Shown here piece after piece: positions 13,699 to 35,969 of a stretch of 39,651 bases of DNA (position 1 is the first letter of the stretch; each line of letters opens with the position of its first letter). The notes beneath the pieces were generated by a model, which did no database searches, was not told the DNA's origin, and was given only the letters and a program-made list of their open reading frames with translations. The stretch comes from a virus: positions 1 to 39,651 of the IMG/VR virus record IMGVR_UViG_3300030101_000446; one strand, given 5' to 3'. A program made the position numbers and the translations under genes.

Positions 13699-14727
13699 AT
13701 GGGATTTTTTAGCAATTTATTTGGTACAAATCAAAAACGTAACGTAGGTACTATAGGACGAGAGTACGATGATGCTTACGCTCCAGCAACAGAGGCGTAT
13801 GACCAGTTGATGGGTAGGGGTCAGGAAATGATGGACCCCAACTCTGCGTTTAACCAGTCTCAAAAAGCTAGAATGATGGCACAGGGACAGGATGCGGCGG
13901 CTATGTCAGCTCGTATGGCACAAAGAACTGCGGCTATGTCAGATGGTGCACCGTCAGGTGTTTTAGCGGCTCAAGCTACGGCAGGTGCTAACAGAGCACA
14001 AGAAAGTTCTATGGATGCTTATAATCAATACCTACAAGGTGCAATGGGTCAGGGTGCTGGTATGCTTAGTGGTGCGGCTAATAACTTAGCAAGTATGAAC
14101 ACTAATAGAATGAATGCTATGAACGCTCAAAGACAAGCAAATGCACAAATTGACAGTCAAGCGGCAGGTGGTATGGCATCACTTATTGGGACTGGTCTTG
14201 GTATTGCAGGTACTGCTATGGGTGGACCTATTGGTGGTATGATAGGCAAAGGACTTGGTAGTTTATTTGGACAAGAAGGTGGTAGCGTTCCAGAAGATTT
14301 AGAGTATATGATGTATGGTGGTTTGGTTAGAGACAAAAAAAATAGCCCTGAAGATAAAACAGAAAAGATAGAGATGAAAAAGGGTGGGTTTGTTAGTCAT
14401 ATGATGTACGATAAAAAAGGTAAAGGTTACAAAGCTGATACTATGGAAGACCATTTACGTATGAAAGAAATGGGTTACACCCATAAGAAAGGTATGATGT
14501 ATGGTGGTAAAGTAAAGGGTTATCAACAAGGTGGCTCTGCACTAAAACCTATACCCGAAGGAAACAAAGGATTGTCTAGACTGCCAGAAGCAGTTCGCAA
14601 TAAAATGGGTTATATGAAAAAAGGTGGTTATGTTTATGGACAGGAAGGTGGTATGCTATCACAAGTTATGGGACCTAGAGGTCCTATGCAGATAGGTACT
14701 CGTATGGGAGGTGTTCAAATTGGCTGA
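13699..14727 (+). CDS. internal virion/ejection protein
   Basis: A 342-residue protein rich in Ala, Met, Gly and Gln. Residues 1-160 are predicted helical with Gln/Ala-rich segments (QDAAAMSARMAQRTAAMSDG). Residues 155-195 are a Gly-rich hydrophobic stretch (GMASLIGTGLGIAGTAMGGP), followed by a basic Gly/Tyr/Lys-rich tail with repeated YGG and KKGG motifs (MMYGGKVKGYQQGG). This resembles small ejection proteins of short-tailed phages, which are packaged in the head and enter the envelope with DNA. It is the first of a run of such genes leading to the giant RNA-polymerase-like protein. Confidence 0.6.
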   Translation: MGFFSNLFGTNQKRNVGTIGREYDDAYAPATEAYDQLMGRGQEMMDPNSAFNQSQKARMMAQGQDAAAMSARMAQRTAAMSDGAPSGVLAAQATAGANRAQESSMDAYNQYLQGAMGQGAGMLSGAANNLASMNTNRMNAMNAQRQANAQIDSQAAGGMASLIGTGLGIAGTAMGGPIGGMIGKGLGSLFGQEGGSVPEDLEYMMYGGLVRDKKNSPEDKTEKIEMKKGGFVSHMMYDKKGKGYKADTMEDHLRMKEMGYTHKKGMMYGGKVKGYQQGGSALKPIPEGNKGLSRLPEAVRNKMGYMKKGGYVYGQEGGMLSQVMGPRGPMQIGTRMGGVQIG

Positions 14728-16378
14728 GTCTGACGCACAGTATAGAAAACGAAGAGAAAGAGAGGATGCTCAAGCTGTAGCATTAGGTAAAAAGATGGCG
14801 GCAGTTGATGAGGCTCAAGCTTTAAGTGGTGGTTTTGGTAGTATGAAAAACATTAGAATGCAACCAATGAGTAACAATATAGAACTAGTACAAGTTGGTA
14901 ATGGTGTTCCTTCTGGTCTTTTAAATCAAGAAAGAACTGGAAAACAAATAGATAGACTTATACACGGTGCTAGAATGATGGGTGACCCAGAGTACGCTAA
15001 GAAATTTATGCCCGGACCTATGCCTCAGCTAAAAAGAGCAGGTGTAGATAAATTTATGCCAGAAGCAGTAGATATGCCTACTGGTGATGAGTTTGCTATG
15101 TCGGATATGAATAGACTGCTTGGTGTTAAGAAAACAATGCTAGGCTCTAAAATGGCTAAGAACATAAAAGAAGACTATGATAAACTTGTTCCAAATGACA
15201 TTAGAAGAGCAGAGAACAGTCCATTGCCCGGTGATGTAGTAGACGCTAAGTTAGAACCCGGAGAATACGTACTTAACAGAAACGCTGTAAAAGCTATTGG
15301 TAAGGAACAACTAGATAAAATAAACAATGTAATAAAACCAAGGTTTTCTGATAAAATTAAAAAGAAAGTTAGAGACTTACCTCGTAGCATAGCTTTAGGA
15401 ACAAGAAGAGAAGATTGGCAAAAGTATATGCAGACTGGTGGTCCTATAGAAAAGATAGACCTTACAGGTATGGAAGACCAGATGGGTTTTGGAGAAAATC
15501 CTTATGCAGATGCAGAAGAGTTAGGTGAACAAACAATACAAAAAGGTGTAGAGTTTGGTAAAAAACTATATGGTGGTGCTAAAGATTTATTAGGCAAGGC
15601 TTATAACAGGTTTGGTGGAGATGCTATAAAGGCTAGTAAAGCTATGGACTTACAAGCTGATTTAAATTCAGAGTGGGCAGGTGGTGTAGACGGAGAAGCC
15701 TTTGAAGGTCAAGAAGAATTTGAAGACTCTAATCTAGAGATGGCTAAAATGATGAGAGATGAAATGGGTCTAGGTAAAGCTGACTATGGTATGGCGGCTG
15801 GTCAATTTGGTCAACAAGTTGTAGATGATTTACAAGCTGGTTTAGGAGCTGGTGTAGCAGGTGCAGGAGCTATAGCAAACAAAGCACAAGAACTATACGG
15901 TAAAGCAAGTGATAAGTATCAAGAGTTTAAACCTAAAGCAAAAGAGTATTTAGAAAGTGAAAAGTTTCAAAAACACGCTAGTAAGGGTTTAGGAATGGCA
16001 GGTGAGTTTTTTAAGGAAATGGCGGCAATGAGAGGCTTTGGTGAAGGTGGAGACTTTGACCAGTTTAAACCTCAAGCTTTAAAAAAAGTTGGGGAAGAAG
16101 AAACAAAACCAGAAGTTAAAGATGAGATTACTCCAGAGCAAAACAAAAAAGGTCAAGAAAACTATGAAGGTGCTATATCTAAAGCAAAAGCAATGCAAGA
16201 AATGGATTTACCTTTACCAGATGTATTAAAGAAAGCAGTAGAAGAACAAGATGATATGATAGGACCTAAGCTACCTCCGGGTGGTATAACAGGTATGGCT
16301 ACTGGTCAACAAGGTGGTTATGTAACTATGCAAGGTTTTATAAAACAATCGTTGGAGAATATGTATGGCAGAAATTAA
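14720..16378 (+). CDS. internal virion protein, probable TTG start
   Basis: The TTG at 14720 is preferred because GGGAGG lies 8 bases before it; a GTG at 14711 in the same frame would sit on that site. The product (about 552 residues, starting MAESDAQYRKRR) is rich in Met, Gly, Lys and Glu. A central stretch near residue 175 (PGDVVDAKLEPGEYVLNRNA) resembles the PGE-x-V-x-x-x-A motif common in phage internal and tail proteins. The C-terminal third alternates Gly/Ala-rich and charged helical segments. It overlaps the previous gene by eight bases and the next by 14. An ejection or internal head role is inferred from context. Confidence 0.55.
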   Translation: MAESDAQYRKRREREDAQAVALGKKMAAVDEAQALSGGFGSMKNIRMQPMSNNIELVQVGNGVPSGLLNQERTGKQIDRLIHGARMMGDPEYAKKFMPGPMPQLKRAGVDKFMPEAVDMPTGDEFAMSDMNRLLGVKKTMLGSKMAKNIKEDYDKLVPNDIRRAENSPLPGDVVDAKLEPGEYVLNRNAVKAIGKEQLDKINNVIKPRFSDKIKKKVRDLPRSIALGTRREDWQKYMQTGGPIEKIDLTGMEDQMGFGENPYADAEELGEQTIQKGVEFGKKLYGGAKDLLGKAYNRFGGDAIKASKAMDLQADLNSEWAGGVDGEAFEGQEEFEDSNLEMAKMMRDEMGLGKADYGMAAGQFGQQVVDDLQAGLGAGVAGAGAIANKAQELYGKASDKYQEFKPKAKEYLESEKFQKHASKGLGMAGEFFKEMAAMRGFGEGGDFDQFKPQALKKVGEEETKPEVKDEITPEQNKKGQENYEGAISKAKAMQEMDLPLPDVLKKAVEEQDDMIGPKLPPGGITGMATGQQGGYVTMQGFIKQSLENMYGRN

Positions 16379-17771
16379 ACCAATGAACTTACCCGGGGTT
16401 AGTTATGACCCTATGAGGGGTATGCCACAGCAAAAAACATTAGCTGAAAATTTAAGAATGGCGGCTGAGCGTAAGTTTATGCGTCAGATGAACGAGTATC
16501 AGTTAAAGAAACAGGCTCGTGAAGATGAAATGTTTGACATTAATAAGAAAGCAGAAAATTTTATATTTTCTAACTACCCTAGCAGTAAAGCAAAAGGTGA
16601 TTTTACAACAGCTTTTGACAATAGAAAGTTTGGACCCGGTAGCAGGGAAAAAGAATTATCAAAATGGAAAGAACAGGTAGGTGGTAACTACGCCGCTTTT
16701 CAACAGTGGTATGATGCAGGTAAAAAAGCAGAAAACGATGCTTTATTTAAGTCTTTTTATAAAAACCCTGCTAAGTACAAAAGTGACAAAGCATATAGAA
16801 CAGCTATATCTGACTGGATGAATGGTATGTCTGATGCTGAGCAACAAGATATACTTAACACAGCACCACCTGAAGTGTTAACAATATTACAACAGAATTG
16901 GGATGCCTATAGTCCTAAGCTAGGAACTAGAGTTGGTAGATTTTTTGATGAAAACCTTACATTTGGTCAAGGACCTGACGATGACAGCATTTTACCAGAA
17001 GCTTTAACTGTTGGAGGTGGTGCAATAGCTACTGCTTTGGCAACTAAAAAAGCTGGACCAATATTAAAAGCCGCTAAGGGTCTTTTTACAAAGTCTAGTA
17101 AAGTTAATAGAACAGGTATGAAGAATTTAAAAGACCTCACTAATTTAGATAGGAATGTTAAAGCTAGTAATATGATTCCACATAAAAATGTAGTAGGACT
17201 AGACAGAGAACTTGCTAAATTAGTTAAAGACGGAGGTATGAACAGGTCTGATGCAAGTGCATTTAAAGGCGTTGTTAATAAAGTAATGAGAAGTGGGAAG
17301 GAACTTACACCAGAAAACATAGGTTTAGAACTAGCAAAAGGTGGCAAGAATAGATACGGTAGTCTAATGAAAACACTTAATTCATATAATAAGTCTATGT
17401 TAGGACCTATTCGTATGAGTGGTCTTATAGGTGGGATGACTGGGTATGGAGTTGGTAACCTAGCCTTTGAACAAGTAGCAAAAGGTCTAGGAGCTAGTGA
17501 TGAAATGGCTTCTACAGTAGGAAACATAGGAGGTATATCTACTAGTAATCCTGCCGGTGCTTATCAAATGCTTAGAGCAGTTGTAAATAAAAAAGGTCCC
17601 GGTTATGTAATGAAAAAGATTTTAGCTACAGGTGGACCACGATTATTAGCTAGTATGAGTGCAAAAGCTGTGCTTGGAGGCACTGGTATTGGTGCTTTAT
17701 TAGCTGGTGGTTTATTAATTAATGATTTATTTACTATAGTAGACATATTAAAAGACGATATAGAAGAGTAG
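16365..17771 (+). CDS. putative internal virion protein
   Basis: A 468-residue protein. The N-terminal third is charged and helical (MRQMNEYQLKKQAREDEMFD). Residues 215-235 and 345-465 contain Gly/Ala-rich hydrophobic segments (GGGAIATALATKKAGPIL, GLIGGMTGYGVGNL, LGGTGIGALLAGGLLIND), suggesting membrane insertion. This pattern of soluble helix followed by glycine-rich hydrophobic helices is typical of proteins ejected to build a channel across the envelope. It ends three bases before the giant gene. No named family is recognised. Confidence 0.55.
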   Translation: MAEIKPMNLPGVSYDPMRGMPQQKTLAENLRMAAERKFMRQMNEYQLKKQAREDEMFDINKKAENFIFSNYPSSKAKGDFTTAFDNRKFGPGSREKELSKWKEQVGGNYAAFQQWYDAGKKAENDALFKSFYKNPAKYKSDKAYRTAISDWMNGMSDAEQQDILNTAPPEVLTILQQNWDAYSPKLGTRVGRFFDENLTFGQGPDDDSILPEALTVGGGAIATALATKKAGPILKAAKGLFTKSSKVNRTGMKNLKDLTNLDRNVKASNMIPHKNVVGLDRELAKLVKDGGMNRSDASAFKGVVNKVMRSGKELTPENIGLELAKGGKNRYGSLMKTLNSYNKSMLGPIRMSGLIGGMTGYGVGNLAFEQVAKGLGASDEMASTVGNIGGISTSNPAGAYQMLRAVVNKKGPGYVMKKILATGGPRLLASMSAKAVLGGTGIGALLAGGLLINDLFTIVDILKDDIEE

Positions 17772-17774
17772 CAT

Positions 17775-20700
17775 ATGGCTGACCCAAAGCAGTTCTCTCC
17801 TAAGTTTGATGAACAGCAAATAAGAGGAGTCATTGACCAGTATGTTAGATTCCCAGATGCTTTTAACGATAAAGATGATGACATACAAGTCTTAGAAGAC
17901 CACGCCTCATACTATAGAATACCATTTGCTCGTAACAAAAACCACCAAGATGCCTTTGTTACACGTATGCTTAAACAAGCTGGTGCTGGTTTTATGGAGG
18001 GTTTTACTACCTTACCACCAGAAAAACTTGGAGTTGGTAGTGAACCAGAAGATACTTGGGAAGGTATATCACGTAACCTAGGTCACCTTTCAGGGTTTGT
18101 AGGTTACTTACCCGGTGGTAAAACATTAAGAAAACTAGGTGTATTAAAAAGTTATTCTAGAATAGCTGAAGGTATACGAGGAAAATCTGTTCCTATGGTA
18201 GCGGCTAATGCTCTACAAAGTAGAGTAGGTAGAGCTATGGAACCTATATTAAAAGACTTACCCGACTGGGCAACTAGTGGTATCGTACCTGACTTAGCAC
18301 AGGGTGCTTTTCATCTCGGTACTGCTAGTGCCGTATCTAGTTGGACGCACGGAGTAGGTGAAATGTTTAAGGCGGCAGGGTTTGGTGCCGTTGCTGGTGG
18401 TGCGTTTAGAGGTATAGGTAATATGCCCGGTTTTGGTAAGCGTATTGATGCTAGTCAAATGAAACCAAACGGTAGACCAGATTTTAGCAAACTAGAACAA
18501 GGGCAAAAGTTTGACTTGGCTATGCGTACTACAGCAGGTATGGCGTTCCAAGGACTACCATCGACTTTGCAGGGTGCTACGACAGAAGAACAGGTATACC
18601 AATATGCTATGGGTGCTTTCTTTGGTTTTGGTGAAATACCTTATCAGACTCGCACAAGTAGACAGTACCTTGCAGAGTCTATAAAAGAAAAATATGGTCC
18701 AGACCCAGAGATGAATCCTAAGTGGGATACACTTACTAAAGAAATGAAGGACATAGTAAGTAGAGATTTTAAAGAAACATTCCAGTACAGTGCTGATGGA
18801 CCTAGTGAATCATCCTATGTTCTGTTTGATATATTAAGTAATAGAGGAATGAATCTAAAACAGATAGAAGACCTAGCCAATGAGTATGGTAGAGCATATA
18901 ACGTAGACCCTGTGACAGGTGAAATAAGTGCAAAGACTTTGTCTCCTAAAGAAGTAAAAGAATACAGAGATGCTTATGTAAAAGACCCAAGGTTTGAAGA
19001 CCCACAAGATTTAGATATGCACATAGCTGAAATACAGGAAGTACCCGGAAGACTAATGGGCAAGAACGGATACACAGACCAAGTGTTTCCAAAGCTAACC
19101 ACAGTAGAAAGAATAGATAGGTCTAATGAAATCTATAAAGAATGGAGAAAACTACAGAATGAAGACACGAAACCAATCCCGGGAGCAGAGCAAAAAATCA
19201 TTAATTATATTGAAAAAACGTATGGGCAATCCCTTACTGAAAATGAGAAAGGATGGTGGAGACGCTGGGCTGAGACAAACAGAAAACAAAAGTGGGTTGA
19301 GCAAATCGAAGTGGTTGATGACAAGGTTAGGGTGTTGGAAGAGAAAACTAATAGCCTTGGTAACACGAAGAACTTATCACAAGAACCACTTATTATCGAA
19401 GATGGATATAGAGCAGAGTACAAACGAGTCAATCGAGGAAGAGAACTACCACCAGAGGACCAGTACTTTCGAGTTCTTGACCATATAGTATACAGAGGGA
19501 AAGAACACGACCTTGCAAGAGCAGAACAAAATATATCACGACAAAAGTTAGTTGAGATACGAAAGAAGTTCAAAGATAAAGAGATGGATTACAACGATTT
19601 AAAAGAAATGGCTGACTTAGAAGCCTCTAGATATATGAAAGGTGTTCGTAAAAAACTTATAGAAACTATGTGGAAGGATGACTATTATTATTACGGTGGC
19701 AAGGGTGACAATAAAAAAATGTATTTTGTTAAAAAACATCCTAGCATAGTAAAGAACAAAAACATACACAAAACTGTTAAACGTCAGTTGTTTACAGAAA
19801 TGCGTAAATCAAAAGTTGATGGTTACAGAGAAGCATACAACGAAGCTAGAGATAAGTGGGTAGAACAACATAAAGATGTAAAGAATGCTAGTGAAGTGTA
19901 TGATAAAATGTACGCATCTAATGTATTGTATGACTTAACTATGAATGGTTTTAGCACGAGAACAAAAGATTTAAAGCAAGGGATAGCTACTGTTCTAGGC
20001 AAAGGTTTTATAAATGACCCTAAAGGGTTTAATAAGAGGCAACAGATATGGTTTAACACGGGTTTATCTGCTAACCCTAAGTATGTTATAGATTACATAA
20101 GAAACAACGGTAAACGAGATATTTCTAGCAAGGACCCTAATTTTAAAGTAGGGTTGTTTAGTGAGGCTGATGGTAAAAATATTAAGCTAACAGATGGTGC
20201 AGAAAGATATGCTGAAATATCCGATGGTGCTATCATAGCTAGAGCAGAGGTAGTTGATGCTTTAAATATGGATAAAGGTTTACCTACTAGTGGTAAGATG
20301 AACAAGTCTTTTATTGTTGCACCAGACAGTAAGGAAGGTGCTTTGTTAGGTAAGTATGCTATACACATAGCGAGTCCAGAGCTACAACAAATGATGGAGT
20401 CTCGTGGTATACATATGCTGATGCCCGACTCTGCTGTAAAACAAGCAGGTAACAGGATAAGTAAACGTGGTGAGTTGTCTTACGAACCTGACTTTGTTAA
20501 TAAAAAATATGATATAACATTTAATGGTGAGTTGTTTGATGTTCCTATAAATAGTTTTAGAACTATTATGTCAGAGATAACTAGTGAAAAGTTTTTAAAG
20601 AGACAGCAAGTACCAAAACAGATGTACTCTGTATTAAGTCAATACGGTCACAAATCTATTGATGCTAAGGTTATGGAAGATATGTATAAAAGTCTCTCTG

Positions 20701-23700
20701 ACAGAGCTGTTAGGGGTACTGAAGAAGGTATTGAAATACTAAGGCAGTATACAAAGAACCGTAATGATGAGAGCATACAAAAAGTAGTAGACAATATAGA
20801 CCAGATACCATTAAATGAAATCTTTAACATACTTAGAAACCCTAAAGAACAAAAGTTATCACAGAAACTATATGAACAGATATTAAGAATAAACAACGAG
20901 TTCTTAGAAAACTTAGCTAGTGAGGGTGAAATATCTAGGGAAGCTGAAATGGACTACAAAAAAACATTTGTTGATTACGAAGGTGTAGTAGAGCGTATGG
21001 GTAGGTTGTTTCCAGATGGTAGCATAGGTGCGTATTTACATAAGTTTTCTCGTGACTATAGAATGCAGACCCTTAGAAATTTTGTTGTTCAAAGGTTGAC
21101 TAGACCACAGATAGACAACAGTGCATCTTCTAGGATGAGACCTTGGGAGGTTGGTTTACAATTACCCAATAAGAAAACAGAAATATTATCAAGGAAAGAA
21201 GGTCAGGATGTATTCTTTTTAGATGATGGTTTTAAAGACTTGCAAATAAAAGATGCGATGTTTGGTAAACAACGTATGACCTTAGGTAAGTTGTTTGAGA
21301 TAAAGGAAAATAATTATAAAGGTTATGAAAATTTTAAGAACGAGATAAATGACATACTTACTGCTGTCGTAATGCGTGTACCTATGGATTCAATAAGTGG
21401 TGCACACGGTTTAGAACTTGCTGGGTTTACAGGTATAAAAGGGTTTGGTAGTCTACTACATCCCAGAAGTATGAGAGCGTTAGGTGGTGCTGACTTAGAC
21501 GGTGACAAGGCTTTTGTATTCTTTGGTGGTGAGTCTAGTGGCTTTAAAAAATCCTGGCGTCAAATGTATGAAAGTGCTAAAGATGAGTACCTGAAGGATG
21601 GTGGCACTAGAGAAGGTGACAATAAGAATGAGATAGACCCTCTTACTAAACAAACTTACGGTGAGCAGTTAGCTGTAAGAGATGAAGTAACAATGAAAAA
21701 GTCTAAGCATCTTACTGCACAGTATTCTCCATACTGGAGAGAGTTTATGAGTAGAGGTGCATATACTGGTAGAGATATGTTAGGTGTAGCTGTTACTAGA
21801 CGTATGGCAATACTTGGTGCTTACAATTCTATTAGAGGTGCAACTGACCAACAAGTTACTGAGCCAATAACACTTACTTATAATAAAGGTGGTAAGAAAG
21901 TAACAGAAAAAGACAGCATTGTACTTACAAAAGATAGGTATAGTGTACCTTACATTGTTACTAAAGACGGTGTAGCTACTAAAAGAAGAATAATATTTGA
22001 ACTAAAGAAAACAGACCAAGACTTACAAAGGTTTAGAGAAATGTCTAGAGCGGCGATTGCTTTAGGTTCTGACCCTATGGATGAGGCTGGTCTAAGAGGT
22101 GAGCTGTTTGAACCTAAGATGTTAGATACTTTATTTAGATATAAAGTGTTTGATGTAAACGACAAAGGAAAGCTTAGTATAAACAAGTTTGAAACTAAGA
22201 TGATAAATGAAGGTAAGAGAGATTACCTAAAAAATAAAAGTTTACATAAGAAGTTTTTAGAAGCTAACAGCGTGTTGTATGGCAGAAATCATTTGGAGGG
22301 TAGAAGGTTTACATACTCTGAGATACAACAAGGTGCTAGAGCATTTGATTTTATGCCTGAGTCATCTAGAAATACGTTTTTACCACAGTTAGCAGAGTCT
22401 ATTAAGGGTATTAACTGGTCAGATAATATGTTTAAACACGCAAACGAAGCTGTTATAAATAGAATATACTTTGAACACGCTGATTTAGTTAGAGAAAATG
22501 AGTGGCTCAAAGATGCTATGGGTAGAAGTAGTTTGAGAACAGAAAAAGGTCAGTTTATACAGAATGTATTAGATGGTGAGTTGTACACAAGAGCTGGTAG
22601 AGAACGTATAGGTGGTAGTGAAAAGATATTTGAAGAGTACATAAAAAAGTTTGGAGACATACCTTATAGGTTTAGAAATGTAGATTTTACAAAACAAAAT
22701 AACCGTGAGTTTTATTTAGAACATTTAATGTTAAAAGCTGAAGACTTTCTAGTGAACGATTTGAGCGATATGGCTTCGTTAAAAAGTATAAGCACAGTTG
22801 CAGAAGGTATGGACCCAAAAAGAATAGGTGATATACATTCTAAGGTAGATGAAATAAAATCTAAGACTGTTTATATGGCACAGAAACGTAGAGATATGGA
22901 CGATGCACTTAGGAGAATGGGTGATTTAGAGTTTGTACAGTTTGAATCTGGACCAGAAGGTTTAAGAGAAGTAAAACTAAACAGAACATTAACACAAGAA
23001 ATAGAAAAAGCTCGTCAACAGTTTGGTTTTAATGATAGAGCTAGTGCTATGAATGACAGAGTGAGGACAGACGCTCTGATAAGAAGATATAAAAAAGAAC
23101 TATCTCCACAGGAAAAAGATTTATTTGATATGCTTTATATAGGAACTTATAGTAAAGGTGATAGAAAAGCATTGAGTACATTAGAAAAGCTAGAACAAAC
23201 TGTTGGTTTAAAGCAACCTGAAATGCAACAGGCATTAGAACAATTAAGAAAGAACGCTGTTAACACATCACTTATTAGAGAGGGCGTAAACTCTAAAGAA
23301 ATATCTGATAAGAACCTAAAGAAATTCTTTACAAACTATGAACAAATAATTAAAAAGAGTAGAGTAGAATTAACTGAAACACAGAAAGAACAGTTAATGC
23401 GTGAAGCTGAGGGCAATGAACCTGTGACTACGTTTAAAGATGCAGAAGGTAAGGAGTATACTAATCAATTTATAGATGCAAACTTAATAGATGCTAAAAG
23501 TAAAAAGTATTTAGATGAAGTAAAGCCTTTTACAGGATTGTTTGAGGGTAAAGTTAAAGACCCAGAAATGCGTAGGCTATATGACAGTTTAACAGAACAC
23601 TTAGAACACTACCATAACTTAGACGTTATAAATTTAAATGGATTTTTTAGAGGTATATTTAAAAAGAACATTAACGAAGCTACGAAGGTAGACCTACAAC

Positions 23701-26516
23701 AGTTAGATAGAATATTTTTGGATATGCGTGACGGTACTTGGTGGCGTAATACTATGGACTATATGACTGGTAAGGATAAAAACCCTAAGATAAAGAAAGC
23801 ATACTACTGGATGTTTCCAAAAGCTATTGACAGAGACTTAATGCGTAACCCTGCTATGATGGAGTGGGTAGAAGATGTAGGACCATACAAAGATAAGCTA
23901 GGCAATACATTTGAAAACGCTAGGACTGTAAGACCTACTAGTGTTATAGGTACAATACAACAACTTGCACACAGAACTCAAGAGTTGTCTATGCAAAAGT
24001 ATGAAGATGAAGCATCTCTATGGCGTGATGAATTGCGACCATATGTGTCGGCTTTAAAAGATGGTGACGTGTTATTTGAAATAGCCGTTGCTAAACGTGA
24101 GCTACGTTATATGAAAGACAAGTTAAGAAAGAGATACAAAGACAGCTCTAGTGAGTTAACATCTAAAGAAATGGTTTACGAAGAAAACTGGAAAGCATTA
24201 GAAAAACAATGGAATGTATTAAAGAATAAGAATTATATAGTACCTACTAAAGAAGGCAACATACAAAAAACTGGTGAAGCTGTAGTCAATAGTATAGATA
24301 ACATTATAACTAGATACAATATTAAGACTAGGAAGTGGTTGACTGGTACAGAATCAACTAATAAGTGGTTGAAGATAGCAGAGAATAGCAATGGTGATGT
24401 TACTTGGACTGGTTTAGACAAGCTACGCCGTGAGTTTCATAAATATATTATGAAAACTGTGCAGGAAAATAAGACTATACCTATAGAGGAACTTGGTATA
24501 GATGGTATGAGACAAATAGTAAAACGTATACTTATTAGTCAGACGCCCGGTAGGCTAAGAAACTTTGACAGACTTCAGGAAGCACGTAAAAGTCTAGAGG
24601 TTACACCGTTTGACCAGACAGGTGACCTAGGACCAGAGTATTATTTCCCACATATGTCATTTAATAGAAAGTCAGCAAAGAATAAATTAAAAAGTGCGTT
24701 AGATAAGATAGTTAACGACCCAGAGTTAAGTAAAGAAGAAATAGCTAAGGAGTCTAAAAAGATTATACATCAATTTAAAAAGATGACTGGTGATTTTATG
24801 ACTAAGGATGAGATGGGTGATAACTTTGACGTTATGCAGGATGTACTTACTAATATGGCTAACAACAAGGAAGCCAAGGCTAAGTCAATACTTACCAACG
24901 ACCTAAAGCGTGTTGGTAACCAGTTTAGTAGGGATGCACACATAGGTGGTTGGGAGTTAACACCTGAAGCTTATGAAATGTATATGAAAAACAGTATTAA
25001 TACATTTTATAAACAAGCTATGCAGTTATCTGCTAGAACATCTATGTTTAACTTTAACAACTCTTTCTACAAAAAAACAAAAGATGGTAACCTTACTAAT
25101 GCTTGGATGAACTTCTTTAAACTGTACACACAGAGTGCTATGGGATACCCTACACATATACCAGAGCATATAATGAACGACCCAAAGATGAACATAAAAG
25201 GCACAGCTTATAAGTGGTTAGCTGATTCTACTGCAAAGAAAAGAATTGATTTCATAGGAAAGAAACTTGGTTTAAGTAGGAAAGAATTAGAAAAGTTTAA
25301 CCTAGACGAGAAGTCTATAGATGAATTAAGTGGTGTAGAATATAACCAGATACAGGGCTGGGGTGCTTTAGAAGCTAAGTGGCAGTTGGCATCATTACTT
25401 GCACACCCTAAGAGTTCTATTGCAAACCTGTATGGTGGTACTGTTCATACTTGGGTAAGCACTGGTTATAATAATTTAAAGAATGCTAGGAATTTTGACT
25501 ATTTAAAAACTAATGTCAATCCTAGGTGGGAAAATATGAAGGACGTTGAACGCTGGTTGCAGTCTAAAGGTATTATAGAAGAGTTTTTGGTACACGAAGC
25601 AGGTCTAAACCCACAGTTAAAAAGTAAAAAGAACCAAGATTTTATCAGACAAGCAATCGCTAAAATAAAGAGAGACCCTAACTTTAGTGACGAAAGCCTA
25701 GCACAACTGGCTAAAAAGAATGGTATTACGGACCGTGCTTTTGCAGTAGCAAGTTCGTTTATGCGTGTACCAGAAAGAATTTTAAGACGTGACTCGTTTA
25801 TGGCTCACTACCTACAGGCTAAAGACCAGTTTGGTGGTGCAATAGCTGACTACGATAGTCCGTTTCTAATTAATTATGCTAAGCGTGGCGTCAAAGGTAC
25901 ACAGTTCTTGTACTCTGCACCGTTTAGACCATTGTTTACAAATAGCACACTGGGTAGGGTGTTTAGTAGATTCCAACTATGGAGCTGGAATAGTGTTCGT
26001 TTTAGAAATGACGTGGTAAGACGAGCAGAACTTGCAGGGTATCGTGAAGGTACACCTGAGTATGATGCTTTTAAACGTCTAGCTATAGCTGATTTAATGA
26101 TGTTATCATTGTCAAACTTATTTATGTATAGCTTGTTTGAAAGTTCACTTCCAGCTCCTTGGAACTGGTTCCAAGATACTGCTGACTATCTTATGGGTGA
26201 TGAAAAAGAAAGAGACAGGGCGTTCTTTGGTTCACCACTTGGTCCAGTACAAGCTATTACACCTCCGTCACTAAGGTTGTTACCACCTATGTTTAAGTGG
26301 ATGGTAAGTGGAGACAGTGAAAGGTTAACTGACTATTACCTATGGACCATACCACCTTTTGGTAGGATAATAAGAGATGTTGTAGGTCCGGGTGGAATTA
26401 TAGAGAATCCTTTCTATACTGTTACTAAATTTACAGGGCTACCGTTAATGCAAACGGGACAGCTTATTAAACAAGAGAATAAACCGGAAGCTATACGAGG
26501 GAGGTTTCTTTACTAA
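17775..26516 (+). CDS. giant virion protein with two-barrel RNA polymerase core
   Basis: A 2,913-residue protein. Residues 817-895 (ISDGAIIA, KYAIHIASPEL with Lys860, MLMPDSAVKQAG with Lys889) resemble the beta-like double-psi barrel of single-chain phage RNA polymerases, where DGA, K and SA-x-K recur. Residues 1201-1244 read R-x-P (Arg1201, Pro1203), then LHPRSMRALGGADLDGDKAF with Asp1240, Asp1242 and Asp1244, the D-x-D-G-D metal-binding loop of the beta-prime-like barrel. Following helices (DMLGVAVTRRMAILGAYNS; FREMSRAAIALGSDPMDEAG) fit the bridge-helix and downstream regions. Known relatives include crAss-like phage virion polymerases and YonO/QDE-1. N- and C-terminal parts are unrecognised; about 2770-2790 is hydrophobic. 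Inferred: polymerase ejected with the DNA to transcribe early genes. It lies in a run of ejection-type genes. Confidence 0.75.
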   Translation: MADPKQFSPKFDEQQIRGVIDQYVRFPDAFNDKDDDIQVLEDHASYYRIPFARNKNHQDAFVTRMLKQAGAGFMEGFTTLPPEKLGVGSEPEDTWEGISRNLGHLSGFVGYLPGGKTLRKLGVLKSYSRIAEGIRGKSVPMVAANALQSRVGRAMEPILKDLPDWATSGIVPDLAQGAFHLGTASAVSSWTHGVGEMFKAAGFGAVAGGAFRGIGNMPGFGKRIDASQMKPNGRPDFSKLEQGQKFDLAMRTTAGMAFQGLPSTLQGATTEEQVYQYAMGAFFGFGEIPYQTRTSRQYLAESIKEKYGPDPEMNPKWDTLTKEMKDIVSRDFKETFQYSADGPSESSYVLFDILSNRGMNLKQIEDLANEYGRAYNVDPVTGEISAKTLSPKEVKEYRDAYVKDPRFEDPQDLDMHIAEIQEVPGRLMGKNGYTDQVFPKLTTVERIDRSNEIYKEWRKLQNEDTKPIPGAEQKIINYIEKTYGQSLTENEKGWWRRWAETNRKQKWVEQIEVVDDKVRVLEEKTNSLGNTKNLSQEPLIIEDGYRAEYKRVNRGRELPPEDQYFRVLDHIVYRGKEHDLARAEQNISRQKLVEIRKKFKDKEMDYNDLKEMADLEASRYMKGVRKKLIETMWKDDYYYYGGKGDNKKMYFVKKHPSIVKNKNIHKTVKRQLFTEMRKSKVDGYREAYNEARDKWVEQHKDVKNASEVYDKMYASNVLYDLTMNGFSTRTKDLKQGIATVLGKGFINDPKGFNKRQQIWFNTGLSANPKYVIDYIRNNGKRDISSKDPNFKVGLFSEADGKNIKLTDGAERYAEISDGAIIARAEVVDALNMDKGLPTSGKMNKSFIVAPDSKEGALLGKYAIHIASPELQQMMESRGIHMLMPDSAVKQAGNRISKRGELSYEPDFVNKKYDITFNGELFDVPINSFRTIMSEITSEKFLKRQQVPKQMYSVLSQYGHKSIDAKVMEDMYKSLSDRAVRGTEEGIEILRQYTKNRNDESIQKVVDNIDQIPLNEIFNILRNPKEQKLSQKLYEQILRINNEFLENLASEGEISREAEMDYKKTFVDYEGVVERMGRLFPDGSIGAYLHKFSRDYRMQTLRNFVVQRLTRPQIDNSASSRMRPWEVGLQLPNKKTEILSRKEGQDVFFLDDGFKDLQIKDAMFGKQRMTLGKLFEIKENNYKGYENFKNEINDILTAVVMRVPMDSISGAHGLELAGFTGIKGFGSLLHPRSMRALGGADLDGDKAFVFFGGESSGFKKSWRQMYESAKDEYLKDGGTREGDNKNEIDPLTKQTYGEQLAVRDEVTMKKSKHLTAQYSPYWREFMSRGAYTGRDMLGVAVTRRMAILGAYNSIRGATDQQVTEPITLTYNKGGKKVTEKDSIVLTKDRYSVPYIVTKDGVATKRRIIFELKKTDQDLQRFREMSRAAIALGSDPMDEAGLRGELFEPKMLDTLFRYKVFDVNDKGKLSINKFETKMINEGKRDYLKNKSLHKKFLEANSVLYGRNHLEGRRFTYSEIQQGARAFDFMPESSRNTFLPQLAESIKGINWSDNMFKHANEAVINRIYFEHADLVRENEWLKDAMGRSSLRTEKGQFIQNVLDGELYTRAGRERIGGSEKIFEEYIKKFGDIPYRFRNVDFTKQNNREFYLEHLMLKAEDFLVNDLSDMASLKSISTVAEGMDPKRIGDIHSKVDEIKSKTVYMAQKRRDMDDALRRMGDLEFVQFESGPEGLREVKLNRTLTQEIEKARQQFGFNDRASAMNDRVRTDALIRRYKKELSPQEKDLFDMLYIGTYSKGDRKALSTLEKLEQTVGLKQPEMQQALEQLRKNAVNTSLIREGVNSKEISDKNLKKFFTNYEQIIKKSRVELTETQKEQLMREAEGNEPVTTFKDAEGKEYTNQFIDANLIDAKSKKYLDEVKPFTGLFEGKVKDPEMRRLYDSLTEHLEHYHNLDVINLNGFFRGIFKKNINEATKVDLQQLDRIFLDMRDGTWWRNTMDYMTGKDKNPKIKKAYYWMFPKAIDRDLMRNPAMMEWVEDVGPYKDKLGNTFENARTVRPTSVIGTIQQLAHRTQELSMQKYEDEASLWRDELRPYVSALKDGDVLFEIAVAKRELRYMKDKLRKRYKDSSSELTSKEMVYEENWKALEKQWNVLKNKNYIVPTKEGNIQKTGEAVVNSIDNIITRYNIKTRKWLTGTESTNKWLKIAENSNGDVTWTGLDKLRREFHKYIMKTVQENKTIPIEELGIDGMRQIVKRILISQTPGRLRNFDRLQEARKSLEVTPFDQTGDLGPEYYFPHMSFNRKSAKNKLKSALDKIVNDPELSKEEIAKESKKIIHQFKKMTGDFMTKDEMGDNFDVMQDVLTNMANNKEAKAKSILTNDLKRVGNQFSRDAHIGGWELTPEAYEMYMKNSINTFYKQAMQLSARTSMFNFNNSFYKKTKDGNLTNAWMNFFKLYTQSAMGYPTHIPEHIMNDPKMNIKGTAYKWLADSTAKKRIDFIGKKLGLSRKELEKFNLDEKSIDELSGVEYNQIQGWGALEAKWQLASLLAHPKSSIANLYGGTVHTWVSTGYNNLKNARNFDYLKTNVNPRWENMKDVERWLQSKGIIEEFLVHEAGLNPQLKSKKNQDFIRQAIAKIKRDPNFSDESLAQLAKKNGITDRAFAVASSFMRVPERILRRDSFMAHYLQAKDQFGGAIADYDSPFLINYAKRGVKGTQFLYSAPFRPLFTNSTLGRVFSRFQLWSWNSVRFRNDVVRRAELAGYREGTPEYDAFKRLAIADLMMLSLSNLFMYSLFESSLPAPWNWFQDTADYLMGDEKERDRAFFGSPLGPVQAITPPSLRLLPPMFKWMVSGDSERLTDYYLWTIPPFGRIIRDVVGPGGIIENPFYTVTKFTGLPLMQTGQLIKQENKPEAIRGRFLY

Positions 26517-26701
26517 TGCCAATACCTAATCATTGTGTTGAATGTGATAAACCACTTACTAATGATGACGGATACTTATGTAAATCCTGTCAAGATAAAG
26601 AACGTGAAAAGAATATGGTTAAGACTACTAGTACTGGTGTTGACTTAACAAAAATATTACCAAGTTTAAATGAAAAAGAAAATTCTACAAGACGCTATTA
26701 A
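26516..26701 (+). CDS. small zinc-ribbon-like protein
   Basis: A 61-residue protein whose ATG overlaps the stop of the giant gene. HCVECDKPL and LCKSCQDK supply two CxxC pairs, a likely zinc-binding knuckle of the treble-clef/DksA type in miniature, followed by a charged, unstructured tail. A role with the virion RNA polymerase is possible from position alone, but there is no direct evidence. Confidence 0.6.
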   Translation: MPIPNHCVECDKPLTNDDGYLCKSCQDKEREKNMVKTTSTGVDLTKILPSLNEKENSTRRY

Positions 26702-28205
26702 AAAATTTAGTACCTCTGAGTATATGCCAAGCATAAGTAAACGAGATTTAGTCTCTGCTGGTTTGATGACCGGTGTAGCTGTACCCACAGCACAAAAACA
26801 AGGTGCTATTGACTTAACATCGGATGATAACTTAGAAAAATTTAAAGCTGGTGCAACTGTTGTTAGTGCATTAGGTGCTGGTATGTTATTAAGTAAAGGT
26901 GGAGGTCGTGTTGGCAGAGCTATAACTAGAAAAGAAGCATCTAGAAATATACCTGAACAAAAAATAAGAGACGCTGGTGTATCACAAATAGCTAATAATG
27001 TTCGTAGTGATAAATTTCAAAAAGTATTAGGTCAATTTTATGGTAGTGGTTTTATGGAAAGAATGGTTTCTATAGGACAAGTTGCTGGTATGGGTGGTCT
27101 TAGAGCTATTGGTCAGTATTTAAACCCAAGAGAATCGTTTGCAACAAGAATGTCTGGCATCCCTAGATATTTAAAAAATGCTATTAACACACAAAGACGT
27201 GATGTTCTGGATGTTCAAGAAGAAGTTTCTAAATTAGTTAAACCAGCTAAAGACGCATCGGATGAGGTTAAAAAAGCATACAATGTTGAAGTAAAAAGGT
27301 TAATGAAAGAAAAAGATATTGATGGTGGGTTTAAAATATTACATAACAAAATAATAAATGACTATTCTAACGCACTAATATTTAATAAAAAACCTGTAAA
27401 ACAACTGTCTGATTATGCAGAAAGATTTGTAAATGAAATAAGTTACAAACAACTTATTGAAGAGAACAAAGGTTTACTACCACAAGAAGCTATAGATAAT
27501 TTAATTAATGTTCAGGGTATAGGTAAAACTGGTACTAAATATTTAAAGTTAAATGATAGGGCTTTAAGGCAAGGTGGTGATGTATTAAGGGGTATACAAT
27601 TTGATTCCAAAAGTGCAAAATGGTTTGAAAGTGTAAATCGTGGGGAAAAAAGTCCAGAAAAAATTTTTGAAAACGCCATTTCAATTTTTGGTAAAAATTC
27701 GGTCTTCGATTTAAGTAATGGTAAAATGGAAAAAATACAAATTATATTTAGTCCTAAAATGAAACCTAATATAGACTGGGGTGGATATGCAGGTACTATT
27801 GTATTAGATACTAAGAATCCTAAAGAAATTATTATGATGGCAGATGACTTGAGAGACTTGTTTGGTATTAAATTAGGTAACACAGTACTTAATGTAAGTA
27901 AAGCTCAACGTACAAAATTTCCACAAGTTTTAAAAAAGATAAACGAAACAGATACTATAAATAGAACTATTGTTCCTAAATCTAAACCAAAAGCTAAACT
28001 AACTAAAGAAACAAAGAAAGTAAATGTAAATGTTATTAAAGCTAGGGCAAATCTAGCTAAGGAAGATATTGATAGAATGGTTGATTTAGCAGAGTCTTAT
28101 GAAAAAAACTTTAAAGAATGGAAACTTACTCCTGAATTTGTAGGAAGTCGTTTAGGTGCAGGTGCAGGAATACTTGGTGTTTACGCTTTAGCGTCAGAAG
28201 ACTGA
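26670..28205 (+). CDS. putative internal virion protein (last late gene)
   Basis: A 511-residue protein overlapping the previous gene by 32 bases. The N-terminus has Gly/Ala-rich hydrophobic segments (residues 28-40 and 60-85, ATVVSALGAGMLLSKGGG), followed by a charged helical middle, a beta-containing region (about 350-400, PNIDWGGYAGTIVLDT), a Lys-rich linker and a short C-terminal hydrophobic end (LGAGAGILGVYALASED). Composition and place at the end of the ejection cluster suggest a virion-internal or membrane-acting protein. No family is recognised. Confidence 0.6.
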   Translation: MKKKILQDAIKKFSTSEYMPSISKRDLVSAGLMTGVAVPTAQKQGAIDLTSDDNLEKFKAGATVVSALGAGMLLSKGGGRVGRAITRKEASRNIPEQKIRDAGVSQIANNVRSDKFQKVLGQFYGSGFMERMVSIGQVAGMGGLRAIGQYLNPRESFATRMSGIPRYLKNAINTQRRDVLDVQEEVSKLVKPAKDASDEVKKAYNVEVKRLMKEKDIDGGFKILHNKIINDYSNALIFNKKPVKQLSDYAERFVNEISYKQLIEENKGLLPQEAIDNLINVQGIGKTGTKYLKLNDRALRQGGDVLRGIQFDSKSAKWFESVNRGEKSPEKIFENAISIFGKNSVFDLSNGKMEKIQIIFSPKMKPNIDWGGYAGTIVLDTKNPKEIIMMADDLRDLFGIKLGNTVLNVSKAQRTKFPQVLKKINETDTINRTIVPKSKPKAKLTKETKKVNVNVIKARANLAKEDIDRMVDLAESYEKNFKEWKLTPEFVGSRLGAGAGILGVYALASED

Positions 28206-28252: not shown

Positions 28253-28441
28253 TTAATCCATTAGCTTACCCATAGCTATGTAAAACAACTCTGGAGTAAG
28301 TCTTTTTAGATTACCATCTTGACAACGCTTTGCCATTCTGTTAACCACACACTTTAACTCGTACATTACTTGGTCCATTGCACCAGCACCTAGCTGGATA
28401 CCGTGTTCTTTGAATGCTTTCTTTATTTCAGTTTTTGTCAT
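28253..28441 (-). CDS. possible single histone-fold protein
   Basis: A 62-residue protein with a strong AAGGAG site. Its layout resembles a minimal histone fold: a short first helix (KTEIKKAFKEHGI), a loop, a long central helix (MDQVMYELKCVVNRMAKRCQ), a loop with GNLKRLT, and a short third helix (ELFYIAMGKLMD). Archaeal histones show a comparable helix-strand-helix-strand-helix order with a K-x-[TL]-[TI] element before the last helix. If correct, the protein would dimerise and bind DNA. The comparison is by eye; an ordinary three-helix protein remains possible. It is the last early gene and follows a structured leader. Confidence 0.7.
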   Translation of the reverse strand: MTKTEIKKAFKEHGIQLGAGAMDQVMYELKCVVNRMAKRCQDGNLKRLTPELFYIAMGKLMD

Positions 28442-28458
28442 ACTATCTCCTTAATTGA

Positions 28459-28558
28459 GTAAGGTCCCCTCCTACTATCCGATATACTGTGAGGGAGATG
28501 CAATTCACCACTGCTAAACCTCTGTGTATACCTCTCATACTTCGGTCAGGGACCTTAC
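28459..28558 (-). ncRNA. candidate structured RNA A (leader of histone-like gene)
   Basis: A 100-base element closed by a perfect 10-base-pair stem (28459-28468 with 28549-28558). Inside, ATATAC (28482-28487) pairs with GTATAC (28526-28531), a symmetric three-base internal loop follows, and GAGG (28491-28494) pairs with CCTC (28519-28522). The tip is a hairpin, GCAGT-GGTGA-ATTGC in - strand reading. Two of these pairs are G-U on the - strand but A-C mismatches on the + strand, so the transcript is most likely from the - strand. It ends 18 bases before the ATG at 28441. The RNA class is unknown. Confidence 0.5.
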
Positions 28559-28567
28559 TATGTCTAA

Positions 28568-28710
28568 AGAGTCTCAGGTGCCAACCATTATTCATTTGTC
28601 ATTCTTCTTCTTTTTTGGCTGATATATTGGCTAGGTTAACCCATTTTTGCTACTAATATCTGCCTCACAGAGCAACCGTTAGGTTACAAACTCTGACAAA
28701 TTGAGACTCT
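28568..28710 (-). ncRNA. candidate structured RNA B
   Basis: A 143-base element directly upstream of element A. AGAGTCTCA (28568-28576) pairs with TGAGACTCT (28702-28710), and next to it ATTTGTCA (28594-28601) pairs with TGACAAAT (28694-28701). A hairpin at 28673-28686 (TAACC-TAAC-GGTTG in - reading) contains a U-G pair valid only on the - strand. It fills the gap between the MazG-like gene and element A. No known RNA family is recognised. Confidence 0.45.
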
Positions 28711-28718
28711 CTATTTCT

Positions 28719-29204
28719 TTAATCACAATTACTACCCGGTATGCACTTACTCTGTGCCGCTAACGGATTATCGTTCTCGTCACCCGGGTCGTGTGGGCTT
28801 ACATCGTGTATTTTATTGATAGGATTATCAGTTTGACCGATACGTTTATCGTCTTCGTGGTCCCACTTACTACCTTTCTTTAATACGTCTATAAGCTCCA
28901 TTATTTCATTTGCACTGTGCATAGCATTTTCTCTATATGCTTCACTATGTGCTTCGTGTAATGCTCTTAATATAATCTGCATTTTATTAGGTCCTATTGT
29001 CACTGGTTTCTTTTCTTGTGCGTCTGCTTCTAGTTCTAGTAAGTACGCTGTAAGATACACAACTGTATCTAGTACTTCATCTATAGCTTCTTGTAGATTA
29101 GTTAACCCACGTTCACGCCTTATAGGTACCTGCATTTTATATTCTTGTTGACCCTTATCTAATCTTTTCTTTATTAAGTCGATTATTTTATCATTTACTT
29201 CCAT
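28719..29204 (-). CDS. MazG-like nucleotide pyrophosphohydrolase candidate
   Basis: A 161-residue protein with a GGAG site. Residues 36-60 (NLQEAIDEVLDTVVYLTAYL) match the core helix of all-alpha NTP pyrophosphatases (MazG/dUTPase type), with Glu39, Glu43 and Asp46 placed as metal ligands and Tyr50 following. The earlier segment (RLDKGQQEYKMQVPIRRERG) fits the first helix. The rest is a helical stretch and an acidic, probably disordered tail with two Cys. These enzymes remove pyrophosphate from NTPs or alarmones. A second E-x-x-D motif is not obvious, so activity is uncertain. Confidence 0.6.
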   Translation of the reverse strand: MEVNDKIIDLIKKRLDKGQQEYKMQVPIRRERGLTNLQEAIDEVLDTVVYLTAYLLELEADAQEKKPVTIGPNKMQIILRALHEAHSEAYRENAMHSANEIMELIDVLKKGSKWDHEDDKRIGQTDNPINKIHDVSPHDPGDENDNPLAAQSKCIPGSNCD

Positions 29205-29403
29205 TTTTATACTCCATTCCTACATTTATTTTTATAGTAGGTTGATTAGCATTCTTTCTTTTTAACTTGTACATCATTTTTTTTCTTTTTTCACACCAAT
29301 CAAGCAGTCTTTGTATTTTACTATTAGACATTTCTGTTACTGGTTTTTTATCCATACCTCTATATGGTCTTTGTTTAAGAGTCTTTTTCATCACTATACT
29401 CAT
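29191..29403 (-). CDS. small basic protein
   Basis: A 70-residue, strongly basic protein (MKKTLKQRPYRGMDKKPV, then RKKMMYKLKRKNANQ). It overlaps the upstream gene by 29 bases and the downstream gene by 14. An internal ATG four codons later is an alternative start, as no strong ribosome-binding site precedes the first. No domain is recognised; the charge suggests nucleic acid binding. Confidence 0.5.
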   Translation of the reverse strand: MSIVMKKTLKQRPYRGMDKKPVTEMSNSKIQRLLDWCEKRKKMMYKLKRKNANQPTIKINVGMEYKNGSK

Positions 29404-29686
29404 AGTTTTGAAACTTCTTCATATCAAACTCTGGTGGTATTACCATTGTATTTTTTTCTGATTTCTTGTCTTTAAAATATCTCCAAGGCGTAAGAAATCT
29501 ATTAAAAAAGTTTGTTATATCTGATACTCCAGCACCTACGTAATAATGATTATCTATACACTCACTAAATCCGTGATGATAACCCCTTCTGTACGATGCT
29601 TCTAAACTTCTAAATTCTTCTTTTTGTTTATCGGTCAATGGTTCTAACATTTCTTTTAGTGTGTATATTTTTACTTTTTCTTTCAT
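29375..29686 (-). CDS. hypothetical early protein
   Basis: A 103-residue protein with a strong GGAGGG site and a TAATG overlap with the HNH gene. It is helical at the start (TLKEMLEPLTDKQKEEFRSL), then has an aromatic/His-rich middle (RRGYHHGFSECIDNHYYVGA). No catalytic motif is clear. It belongs to the accessory early gene group. Confidence 0.65.
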   Translation of the reverse strand: MKEKVKIYTLKEMLEPLTDKQKEEFRSLEASYRRGYHHGFSECIDNHYYVGAGVSDITNFFNRFLTPWRYFKDKKSEKNTMVIPPEFDMKKFQNYEYSDEKDS

Positions 29687-30153
29687 TAATATCGCCCTCC
29701 TTTGGCTAGTTTTTTCATTACGTAAAGACTTAGTTCTTCTGGTAAGTCTCCTATTAGTTGTATTAATAATGTAAAGTCCTTTTCATTAAGTGGTCCTTTA
29801 CGAGTATTACACGTCTTACAGATGAGCTGTAAATTTTTTCTGTTTGATGGTCCACCTTTAGTAAGAGGAATTATATGGTCACAGGCTATGGTTCTAAATG
29901 TAAGCTGTTTATTACAGTATTTACAACCTTTGCCGTAACTAGTATAAAACATAACACGTATATCAGCGGCATCTATGTCGAACTTTACTTCGTATTGTTC
30001 ACTACGCCGTTTGAGAGAACTCTTTAGAGAACTCATCTTTGAGGCTAGTTTCTTATATGCTTTTTGCCAATATGTTTTGTGTATAGGTTCTAGTACTTTC
30101 TTAAATTCTTCCTTATTTGGTGGTCCCAGCGTTATGTCTCTCTGCTGTGCCAT
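29686..30153 (-). CDS. HNH endonuclease
   Basis: A 155-residue protein with a basic helical N-terminal half and a complete HNH domain: CKYC (Cys77, Cys80), DHIIPLTKGG (Asp92, His93), RKNLQ (Asn107) and CKTC (Cys112, Cys115). The two CxxC pairs bind structural zinc and the His/Asn residues the catalytic metal. It cuts DNA. In phages such enzymes act as homing endonucleases, in host DNA breakdown or with packaging; being in the early block and away from terminase favours the first two. It overlaps the upstream gene by 41 bases. Confidence 0.9.
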   Translation of the reverse strand: MAQQRDITLGPPNKEEFKKVLEPIHKTYWQKAYKKLASKMSSLKSSLKRRSEQYEVKFDIDAADIRVMFYTSYGKGCKYCNKQLTFRTIACDHIIPLTKGGPSNRKNLQLICKTCNTRKGPLNEKDFTLLIQLIGDLPEELSLYVMKKLAKGGRY

Positions 30154-30301
30154 ACTTTAACCTTTTGTATTTTGCATTTTGTTCCTTTAGTTCTATAAGT
30201 CTCTTGTGTCCAGCACTACCGACTAATAGTTTGCCTTTGCTAAGTAACTTTTCATAGAACTTTATCATACCAATTACTTGGTGTCTTCCTACAAGCTTCA
30301 T
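30113..30301 (-). CDS. small basic early protein
   Basis: A 62-residue, Lys/Arg-rich protein with an AAGGA site. It overlaps the upstream membrane gene (ATGA) and the HNH gene. Sequence such as IKFYEKLLSKGKLLVGSAGH suggests two helices with a turn. No family is recognised; DNA binding is conceivable from charge. Confidence 0.55.
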   Translation of the reverse strand: MKLVGRHQVIGMIKFYEKLLSKGKLLVGSAGHKRLIELKEQNAKYKRLKYGTAERHNAGTTK

Positions 30302-30459
30302 CTTCTTTTCCTTAATAATCTGTTAAGTTTTTTTTCTATTCTGGCTAGTCTGTAGACTATGCTTATAAAGAATATTAACATAAAGAACACGTAAGCTTCC
30401 CACGCTAATAGGAAAGGTACTGTATTTTCCATCATAGCGTCCCAATAGTGTGTTATCAT
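30298..30459 (-). CDS. small membrane protein
   Basis: A 53-residue protein, MITHYWDAMM..., with one transmembrane helix (about residues 14-36, including WEAYVFFMLIFFISIVY) and a basic C-terminal tail (RLARIEKKLNRLLRKRR). A GGGGG run precedes the ATG, and its stop overlaps the next start (ATGA). The topology suggests an inner-membrane protein with a cytoplasmic basic tail. Confidence 0.6.
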   Translation of the reverse strand: MITHYWDAMMENTVPFLLAWEAYVFFMLIFFISIVYRLARIEKKLNRLLRKRR

Positions 30460-30479
30460 TTCTACCCCCGTAGATTAAA

Positions 30480-30511
30480 AAGGAGAGCCTCGATGCGGTG
30501 AGACTCTCCTT
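30480..30511 (-). terminator. intrinsic terminator ending the replication operon
   Basis: In - strand reading AAGGAGAG pairs with CTCTCCTT (8 base pairs), continued after one mismatch by a 3-base-pair stem, and is followed by a TTTTT run. It lies eight bases downstream of the HTH gene stop. Genes further downstream would need read-through or another promoter. Confidence 0.85.
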
Positions 30512-30518
30512 ATGGTTA

Positions 30519-30734
30519 TTACGCTTGTACTAAAGTGTACTCTGCGTATTTATTTCCTGTATGGGACTTAACACGGTTAGTTTCAATGTTATGTCCGTCC
30601 GTTCGCAATGAATTTATAACAGCCGCTAATCTAAAGCAACCACATCTATTCAATGCCATCATTGGTGTAACTGCTACACCTTGTTCTAATAACTCTAATA
30701 TCACTGTTTTTTGACTTCTTGCGTTACGTGGCAT
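30519..30734 (-). CDS. HTH_39-type DNA-binding protein
   Basis: A 71-residue protein with a strong GGAGG site. Residues 8-52 (QKTVILELLEQG, VTPMMALNRCGCFRLAAVIN, LRTDGHNIET) follow the pattern of the small phage helix-turn-helix domain HTH_39, in which A-L-N-R-x-G-x-x-R-L-A-x-x-I-x-x-L-R-x-x-G-x-x-I is typical, followed by a short beta wing. It is probably a DNA-binding regulator or replication accessory. It is the last gene before the terminator. Confidence 0.75.
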   Translation of the reverse strand: MPRNARSQKTVILELLEQGVAVTPMMALNRCGCFRLAAVINSLRTDGHNIETNRVKSHTGNKYAEYTLVQA

Positions 30735-30898
30735 AGGTTATCCTCCGATTTAATTAAGGTTATGATACCTCCAAACTTCCAAAAACCTACCTGTAATTCT
30801 ACTGAGTCATTTTGAAACGTCAGTGATACTTGAAATAAGTTAATGATAGTTATGCAGATACCGTTTGCTGGAAAGAATATATCTATAATAGGAGTCAC
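30701..30898 (-). CDS. small hypothetical protein, GTG start
   Basis: A 65-residue protein starting at GTG within a GTGA overlap with the Gp157-like gene stop and overlapping the HTH gene by 34 bases. It is beta-rich and hydrophobic (FFPANGICITIINLFQVSLT, VGFWKFGGIITLIK). No motif is recognised and the ribosome-binding site is weak, so the evidence is mainly position. Confidence 0.45.
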   Translation of the reverse strand: MTPIIDIFFPANGICITIINLFQVSLTFQNDSVELQVGFWKFGGIITLIKSEDNLCHVTQEVKKQ

Positions 30899-31425: not shown

Positions 31426-31573
31426 ATTCTTCCTCTATAGCTTTTTCGATTATGTATTCTAGTTGCTTACGCATACTACGTTTATACTTTACTGCAAGTT
31501 TCTGTAGCTTTAACTTAGTTTCTTGTGGAATCTCTGTTTTAACTACAGCTCTTTGTCCGAATGGTATAGGCAT
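31406..31573 (-). CDS. ribbon-helix-helix (Arc/CopG-type) regulator
   Basis: A 55-residue protein, MPIPFGQRAVVKTEIPQETK..., with a short strand (VVKTEIP) followed by two helices (ETKLKLQKLAVKYKRSMRK, QLEYIIEKAIEE), the standard RHH layout. It would dimerise and bind DNA through the strand. Its AGGAGGAGG ribosome-binding site is the codons for the last three arginines of the primase-helicase. It overlaps the Gp157-like gene by 20 bases. A likely regulator of the early operon. Confidence 0.7.
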   Translation of the reverse strand: MPIPFGQRAVVKTEIPQETKLKLQKLAVKYKRSMRKQLEYIIEKAIEEEYGKENN

Positions 31574-31575
31574 TG

Positions 31576-35935: not shown

Positions 35936-35969
35936 AAACAGTTCTCCTTATGTTGTTGTTGAAATGAAT

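Follow-up and report, generated by a model that had tools for sequence, protein, structure and literature searches.

The window, a stretch of 39,651 nt that comprises most of an incomplete virus record of 40,233 bp and is cut at an N run (39652-39672), carries on its plus strand a giant open reading frame (ORF) of 2,913 residues (17775..26516), which is predicted to encode an RNA polymerase. The frame begins with an ATG and has zero internal stops across its 2,913 codons. Comparison with two close relatives gave dN/dS values of 0.038 and 0.063 across the full gene, each segment being low as well; the ORF is thus intact and under strong purifying selection. Directly upstream lie three fast-evolving Gly/Ala-rich genes (13699..17771, plus strand) that encode proteins of 342, 555 and 468 residues and recur at this position in relatives, with 26-43% identity. 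The third product carries one membrane-like segment, and the three are candidate ejection partners. A 511-residue protein is encoded downstream, at the end of the late operon (26670..28205, plus strand), in a position conserved in relatives; the polymerase gene likewise keeps its place at the late-operon end in relatives down to ~30% identity. Facing this operon is a convergent minus-strand block of replication and takeover genes (28253..39532), in which family matches point to Gam-like, primase-helicase, Sak4, ThiF-like and JAB-like proteins. The primase is fused to a DnaB-type helicase (31576-33351, minus strand), and the proteins scanned over the whole genome included no recognisable DNA polymerase. 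At 34749-37029 (minus strand), a ThiF/E1-like gene (Pfam E 1e-10), a gene for a 145-residue protein and a JAB-like peptidase gene (E 3e-5) follow one another in an order conserved in relatives; they may make up a phage cassette for ubiquitin-like conjugation or deconjugation.

The window itself is without recognisable terminase, portal and capsid genes, which are supplied by overlapping relatives. A P22-type portal was found in all 17 of the other records, and one relative scanned encodes a terminase (phrog_38, E 2e-94) and an SU10-type major capsid protein (E 2e-28); the terminase gene was seen with the PHROG and Terminase_6C models, and PF03237 gave one sub-threshold match. Comparison of the maps gives a gene order that starts with the terminase, the portal, a 312-residue protein, the capsid, tail genes, a collagen-like fibre and a GH108 lysozyme, and continues with a 1,176-residue protein, the three Gly/Ala-rich proteins, the polymerase, the 511-residue protein and finally the convergent replication/takeover genes. 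The phage is described as podovirus-like, with a genome estimated from the overlapping relatives at ~52 kb. The terminase, portal and capsid proteins of a relative have their top tblastn matches in other phages, not crAss-like, at 20-27% identity, while the RNAP fold is closest to a crAss-like enzyme among those of phages (see below), so that these hallmarks point in different directions with regard to Crassvirales. As the nearest isolate proteins are only this similar, the phage lineage is deep, and we found no isolate for it. In one relative (L127, relative G013; 11591-12208), the terminase gene is immediately preceded by a gene for a 2OG-Fe(II) oxygenase-like protein (phrog_61, E 1e-29). 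The window carries a gene for a 730-residue protein with 11 collagen triple-helix repeat stretches (4250-6442, plus strand), which is a tail-fibre candidate and lacks a counterpart in three relatives to which it was compared.

The initial annotation had assigned a two-barrel RNA polymerase active site to the giant ORF on the basis of a small set of residues, all of which were read directly from its translation where they had been placed. The upstream segment contains D817-G818-A819, K860 and S886-A887-V888-K889, and the Asp-loop segment contains R1201-x-P1203 (21375..21383, plus strand), L1228-H1229-P1230 and the putative catalytic loop D1240-L-D1242-G-D1244, preceded by G-A (loop at 21492..21506, plus strand). 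In an HMM alignment of relatives picked by tblastn only, with no motif filter, D1240, D1242, D1244, R1201, P1203 and K844 are kept in 73 of 73 distinct covering rows, and K860 and K889 in 74 of 74. A separate set of 57 sequences was chosen with the motif pattern, so that its invariance at the motif columns is built in by construction. One relative (L057) has GADFDGD in place of GADLDGD. Elsewhere in ~1.05 million ORF residues, the pattern R-x-P-x(30-50)-D-x-D-G-D occurs in only one short phage ORF (four loci). Its rarity among other ORFs, together with the complete conservation in the covering relatives, indicates that the motif match is not due to chance.

The AlphaFold2 model of residues 610-1720, built from a 49-sequence input, has a pLDDT of 88 and a pTM of 0.85. 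The predicted two-barrel polymerase core spans residues ~621-1548 (19635..22418, plus strand), the span that aligns with QDE-1 and 6VR4, and comprises two double-psi barrel regions. The first, or Lys, barrel (residues ~789-930; 20139..20564) harbors K844, K860 and K889, and is placed by the strands of the model, the profile slices described below and the lysine conservation. The second, or Asp, barrel (residues ~1116-1251; 21120..21527) is placed by the model strands, the same slices and an alignment with the DFDGD of rpoC. Behind the second barrel sits a 36-residue helix (residues 1319-1354, helix 710-745 of the model; 21729..21836), a candidate bridge helix at the expected place in the model, although slices of this part, where a bridge helix and trigger loop would follow the Asp barrel, gave P values of 0.3 or worse against gp66 slices. 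A Foldseek search against the PDB at E<=0.001 returned only 6VR4 (the crAss-like virion RNAP, E 3e-8) and QDE-1; among phage enzymes, the fold is closest to gp66 by this search. VIA-align gave Z scores of 14.4 for QDE-1, 13.7 for RDR2 and 12.2 for 6VR4 (over 668 residues), followed by ~11.5 for P74-26 gp62 and P23-45 gp64, and then by the large subunits of multisubunit RNAPs. Superposition of the core model on two-barrel RNAPs spans 500-670 residues. The expectation that a predicted structure would contain both barrels was thus borne out, as the model matches 6VR4, QDE-1, RDR2 and gp64 across the two; a structure lacking them was not obtained.

Profile comparison gave the same picture. Every slice of the family alignment was run against every slice of an alignment of nine crAss-like RNAPs (phi14:2 gp66 and eight others). 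Of the 1,271 pairs, the four best were those that match each barrel with its proper counterpart, in the same order along both chains; the top pair corresponds to the Lys barrel, the third and fourth to the Asp barrel. Both the model and the slice order place the Lys barrel first and the Asp barrel second on a single chain. Alignment of the whole core with the crAss-like RNAP family gave a P value of 3.8e-4. The profile aligner set K889 on the lysine of gp66 GVKVG, and by eye alone K844 and K860 fall on the lysines of QPLKG and YLKYS. Single-sequence profiles of gp96, gp64, YonO, rpoB and rpoC gave weak matches (P 0.03-0.4 or worse). Of these, rpoC (DFDGD) and gp64 put the Asp loop correctly and YonO aligned just a short DGD stretch; gp96 and rpoB set neither barrel on its counterpart, and the matches of gp96, YonO and rpoB were not significant. 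Altogether, the profile-profile and fold comparisons strongly support the annotation of the catalytic part as a predicted single-chain two-barrel RNA polymerase core of the crAss-like/QDE-1 type. The best explanation of the ORF, given the model, is a DNA-dependent RNA polymerase of the crAss-like/QDE-1 clade.

Two conserved terminal parts flank this core. The Gly-rich N-terminal part (residues 1-300; 17775..18674, plus strand) has a mean identity of 43-54% per 100 residues and holds three of the highest hydropathy peaks of the family, and is a candidate for contact with the membrane or the ejection channel. The helical C-terminal part (residues 2400-2913; 24972..26513, plus strand) is the best-conserved long stretch of the ORF, with a mean identity of 51-67% per 100 residues, and contains a membrane-like helix at residues 2770-2788 that is the top hydropathy peak in the family. 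Its model is all-helical, with a pLDDT of 71. The few long matches to this model include two T7-like core-protein structures, at a weak Z of 5.3, but profile slices against T7 core proteins (gp16) performed no better than reversed controls, and we therefore do not claim kinship with T7 gp16. Scanned with Pfam, 41 C-terminal parts showed no domain in common; one relative (alignment A5) carries a cpYpsA SLOG domain (E 1e-16) as an insertion in this part of its polymerase.

Scans of IMG/VR, confirmed by tblastn, revealed relatives of the polymerase in many viral contigs, from ~97% down to ~29% identity; most of these contigs are probably marine, to judge by their project numbers. With the whole protein or diverse relatives as queries, sequence searches found no relatives in 50,697 phage records, Pfam, PHROGs and PDB sequences, or in 84,980 bacterial and archaeal genomes. 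Among the predicted structures of BFVD, some unnamed viral proteins are clearly related to the polymerase in structure (A0A516LW39: 24% identity, TM 0.73), so unannotated members of the family are already present in public databases. We found no paper on this polymerase family; it may have been listed earlier in the supplements of surveys such as that of PMC10770324. Among the two-barrel polymerases of phages, the protein is a new and highly divergent member.

The core resembles crAss-like phi14:2 gp66 (6VR4) in its single chain, in the order of the barrels, in the 668 superposable residues and in an R-x-P located 39-40 residues ahead of the Asp loop, and both phages are podovirus-like. The combination of D-x-D-G-D with R-x-P, taken in the initial annotation as the catalytic signature of crAss-like enzymes as well, occurs in the present protein, but gp66 itself has D-F-D-I-D instead of D-L-D-G-D and its relatives have D-F/Y-D-I/V-D. 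Moreover, tblastn detects no similarity between the two proteins, the large N- and C-terminal parts are without a detected counterpart in gp66, and crAss-like phages have genomes of ~100 kb, compared to ~52 kb here, and other terminase, portal and capsid relatives. QDE-1 and RDR2 give the top VIA Z scores and share the barrel order on one chain; however, they are cellular enzymes of eukaryotic RNA interference, with another role and other flanking domains.

The initial annotation had also drawn an analogy with phage N4 and its unrelated virion polymerase, which holds for strategy and layout only. N4 gp50 adopts a T7-like polymerase fold unrelated to the two-barrel fold, and an N4-type identity of the present protein is therefore ruled out by the superposition of its core on two-barrel enzymes (Z 12-14); a match to the T7-type RNA polymerase family was not found in Pfam either. 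In layout, the protein parallels the virion RNAP of N4 (Schitoviridae), as both are giant single chains with an N-terminal part, an RNAP in the middle and a large C-terminal part. The 3,500-residue polymerase of N4 is ejected, has its active core at the center (residues 998-2103), and is encoded alongside two partner ejection proteins (PMC12633501). A two-barrel precedent is gp96 of phage P23-45, a fusion of a virion RNAP with the tape measure protein that is carried into the cell (PMC10770324). Both proteins hold a two-barrel RNAP within a giant chain, which in the present case is proposed to be delivered as well; P23-45, however, is a long-tailed phage, gp96 lacks a clamp and has its RNAP N-terminal in a 5,002-residue protein, and its profile similarity to the present polymerase is not significant.

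From the N4-like layout and the P23-45 precedent, we infer that the polymerase is quite probably packaged and ejected, and that it would read the replication/takeover block. The gene ends the late operon, adjoins the candidate ejection genes and fits an N4-like architecture, all of which argue for packaging. The polymerase would most likely be packed in the head of the podovirus-like phage and leave it together with the DNA, and may be anchored at the ejection channel or close to it; it could then transcribe the entering minus-strand genes, its presumed first target, before the host polymerase takes over. No second phage RNA polymerase was found. We give somewhat less than an even chance to the broader proposal that an undescribed lineage of small (~50 kb), uncultured phages, with a cell-type two-barrel RNAP in its ejection apparatus, reached the N4 layout, partner ejection proteins included, independently and has transcription signals of its own, perhaps including a covarying hairpin described below.

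Alternatively, the enzyme might be made in the infected cell and transcribe later genes, in the manner of the non-virion polymerases of P23-45 and phiKZ. The matches to the core fold do include two non-virion enzymes, P74-26 gp62 and P23-45 gp64 (PMC10770324), yet such a role is unlikely for a gene that stands last in the late virion operon, outside the replication block. Furthermore, P23-45 gp64 is compact (616 residues), whereas the present protein has ~2,000 extra residues with the best conservation at its ends, which indicates a structural or delivery role. The same conservation, with N- and C-terminal parts at least as conserved as the core overall, could be expected of an ejection or pilot protein that retains an inactive polymerase core as a structural or DNA-binding module; this we regard as very improbable, as the catalytic Asp residues, the R-x-P and three Lys are kept in every covering relative, to ~30% identity, and purifying selection acts on the core. 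A fortuitous motif in a protein that is not a two-barrel polymerase would agree with the missing sequence-level matches in Pfam, PHROGs and PDB sequences, but hardly merits consideration beside the fold match over 500-670 residues, the profile match at both barrels and the conservation.

Two-barrel polymerases are the enzyme class behind all cellular transcription, and phages hold their most varied single-chain forms. The present family is invisible to sequence searches of Pfam, PHROGs and the PDB, yet its active-site residues are intact, and its phages are about half the size of those with a characterised enzyme (crAss-like, ~100 kb; P23-45, 84 kb). If packaged, the enzyme would add to the crAss-like phages and P23-45 a third setting for a cell-type polymerase in a DNA delivery machine. 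Its ~930-residue core could be expressed and tested.

Concerning transcription signals, a motif search of the minus-strand intergenic regions yielded no repeated early promoter and settled instead on hairpins that follow genes. Over the minus-strand region, sigma-70-like sites are as frequent as expected by chance, which neither favours nor argues against a dedicated polymerase. One hairpin (28662-28699, minus strand), GAG-TTTGT-AACC-[TAAC or GAAA]-GGTT-G-CTC, lies ~40 nt downstream of the minus-strand gene ending at 28719. It is conserved in eight relatives with 100% pairing, two pairs being changed on both sides; it has no T-run after it, and an Rfam search gave nothing at E<=1. As a lead only, it could be a terminator or a processing signal. 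A looser hairpin after the JAB-like gene (~36090-36110, minus strand) has GGTTGCTCTG in common with it.
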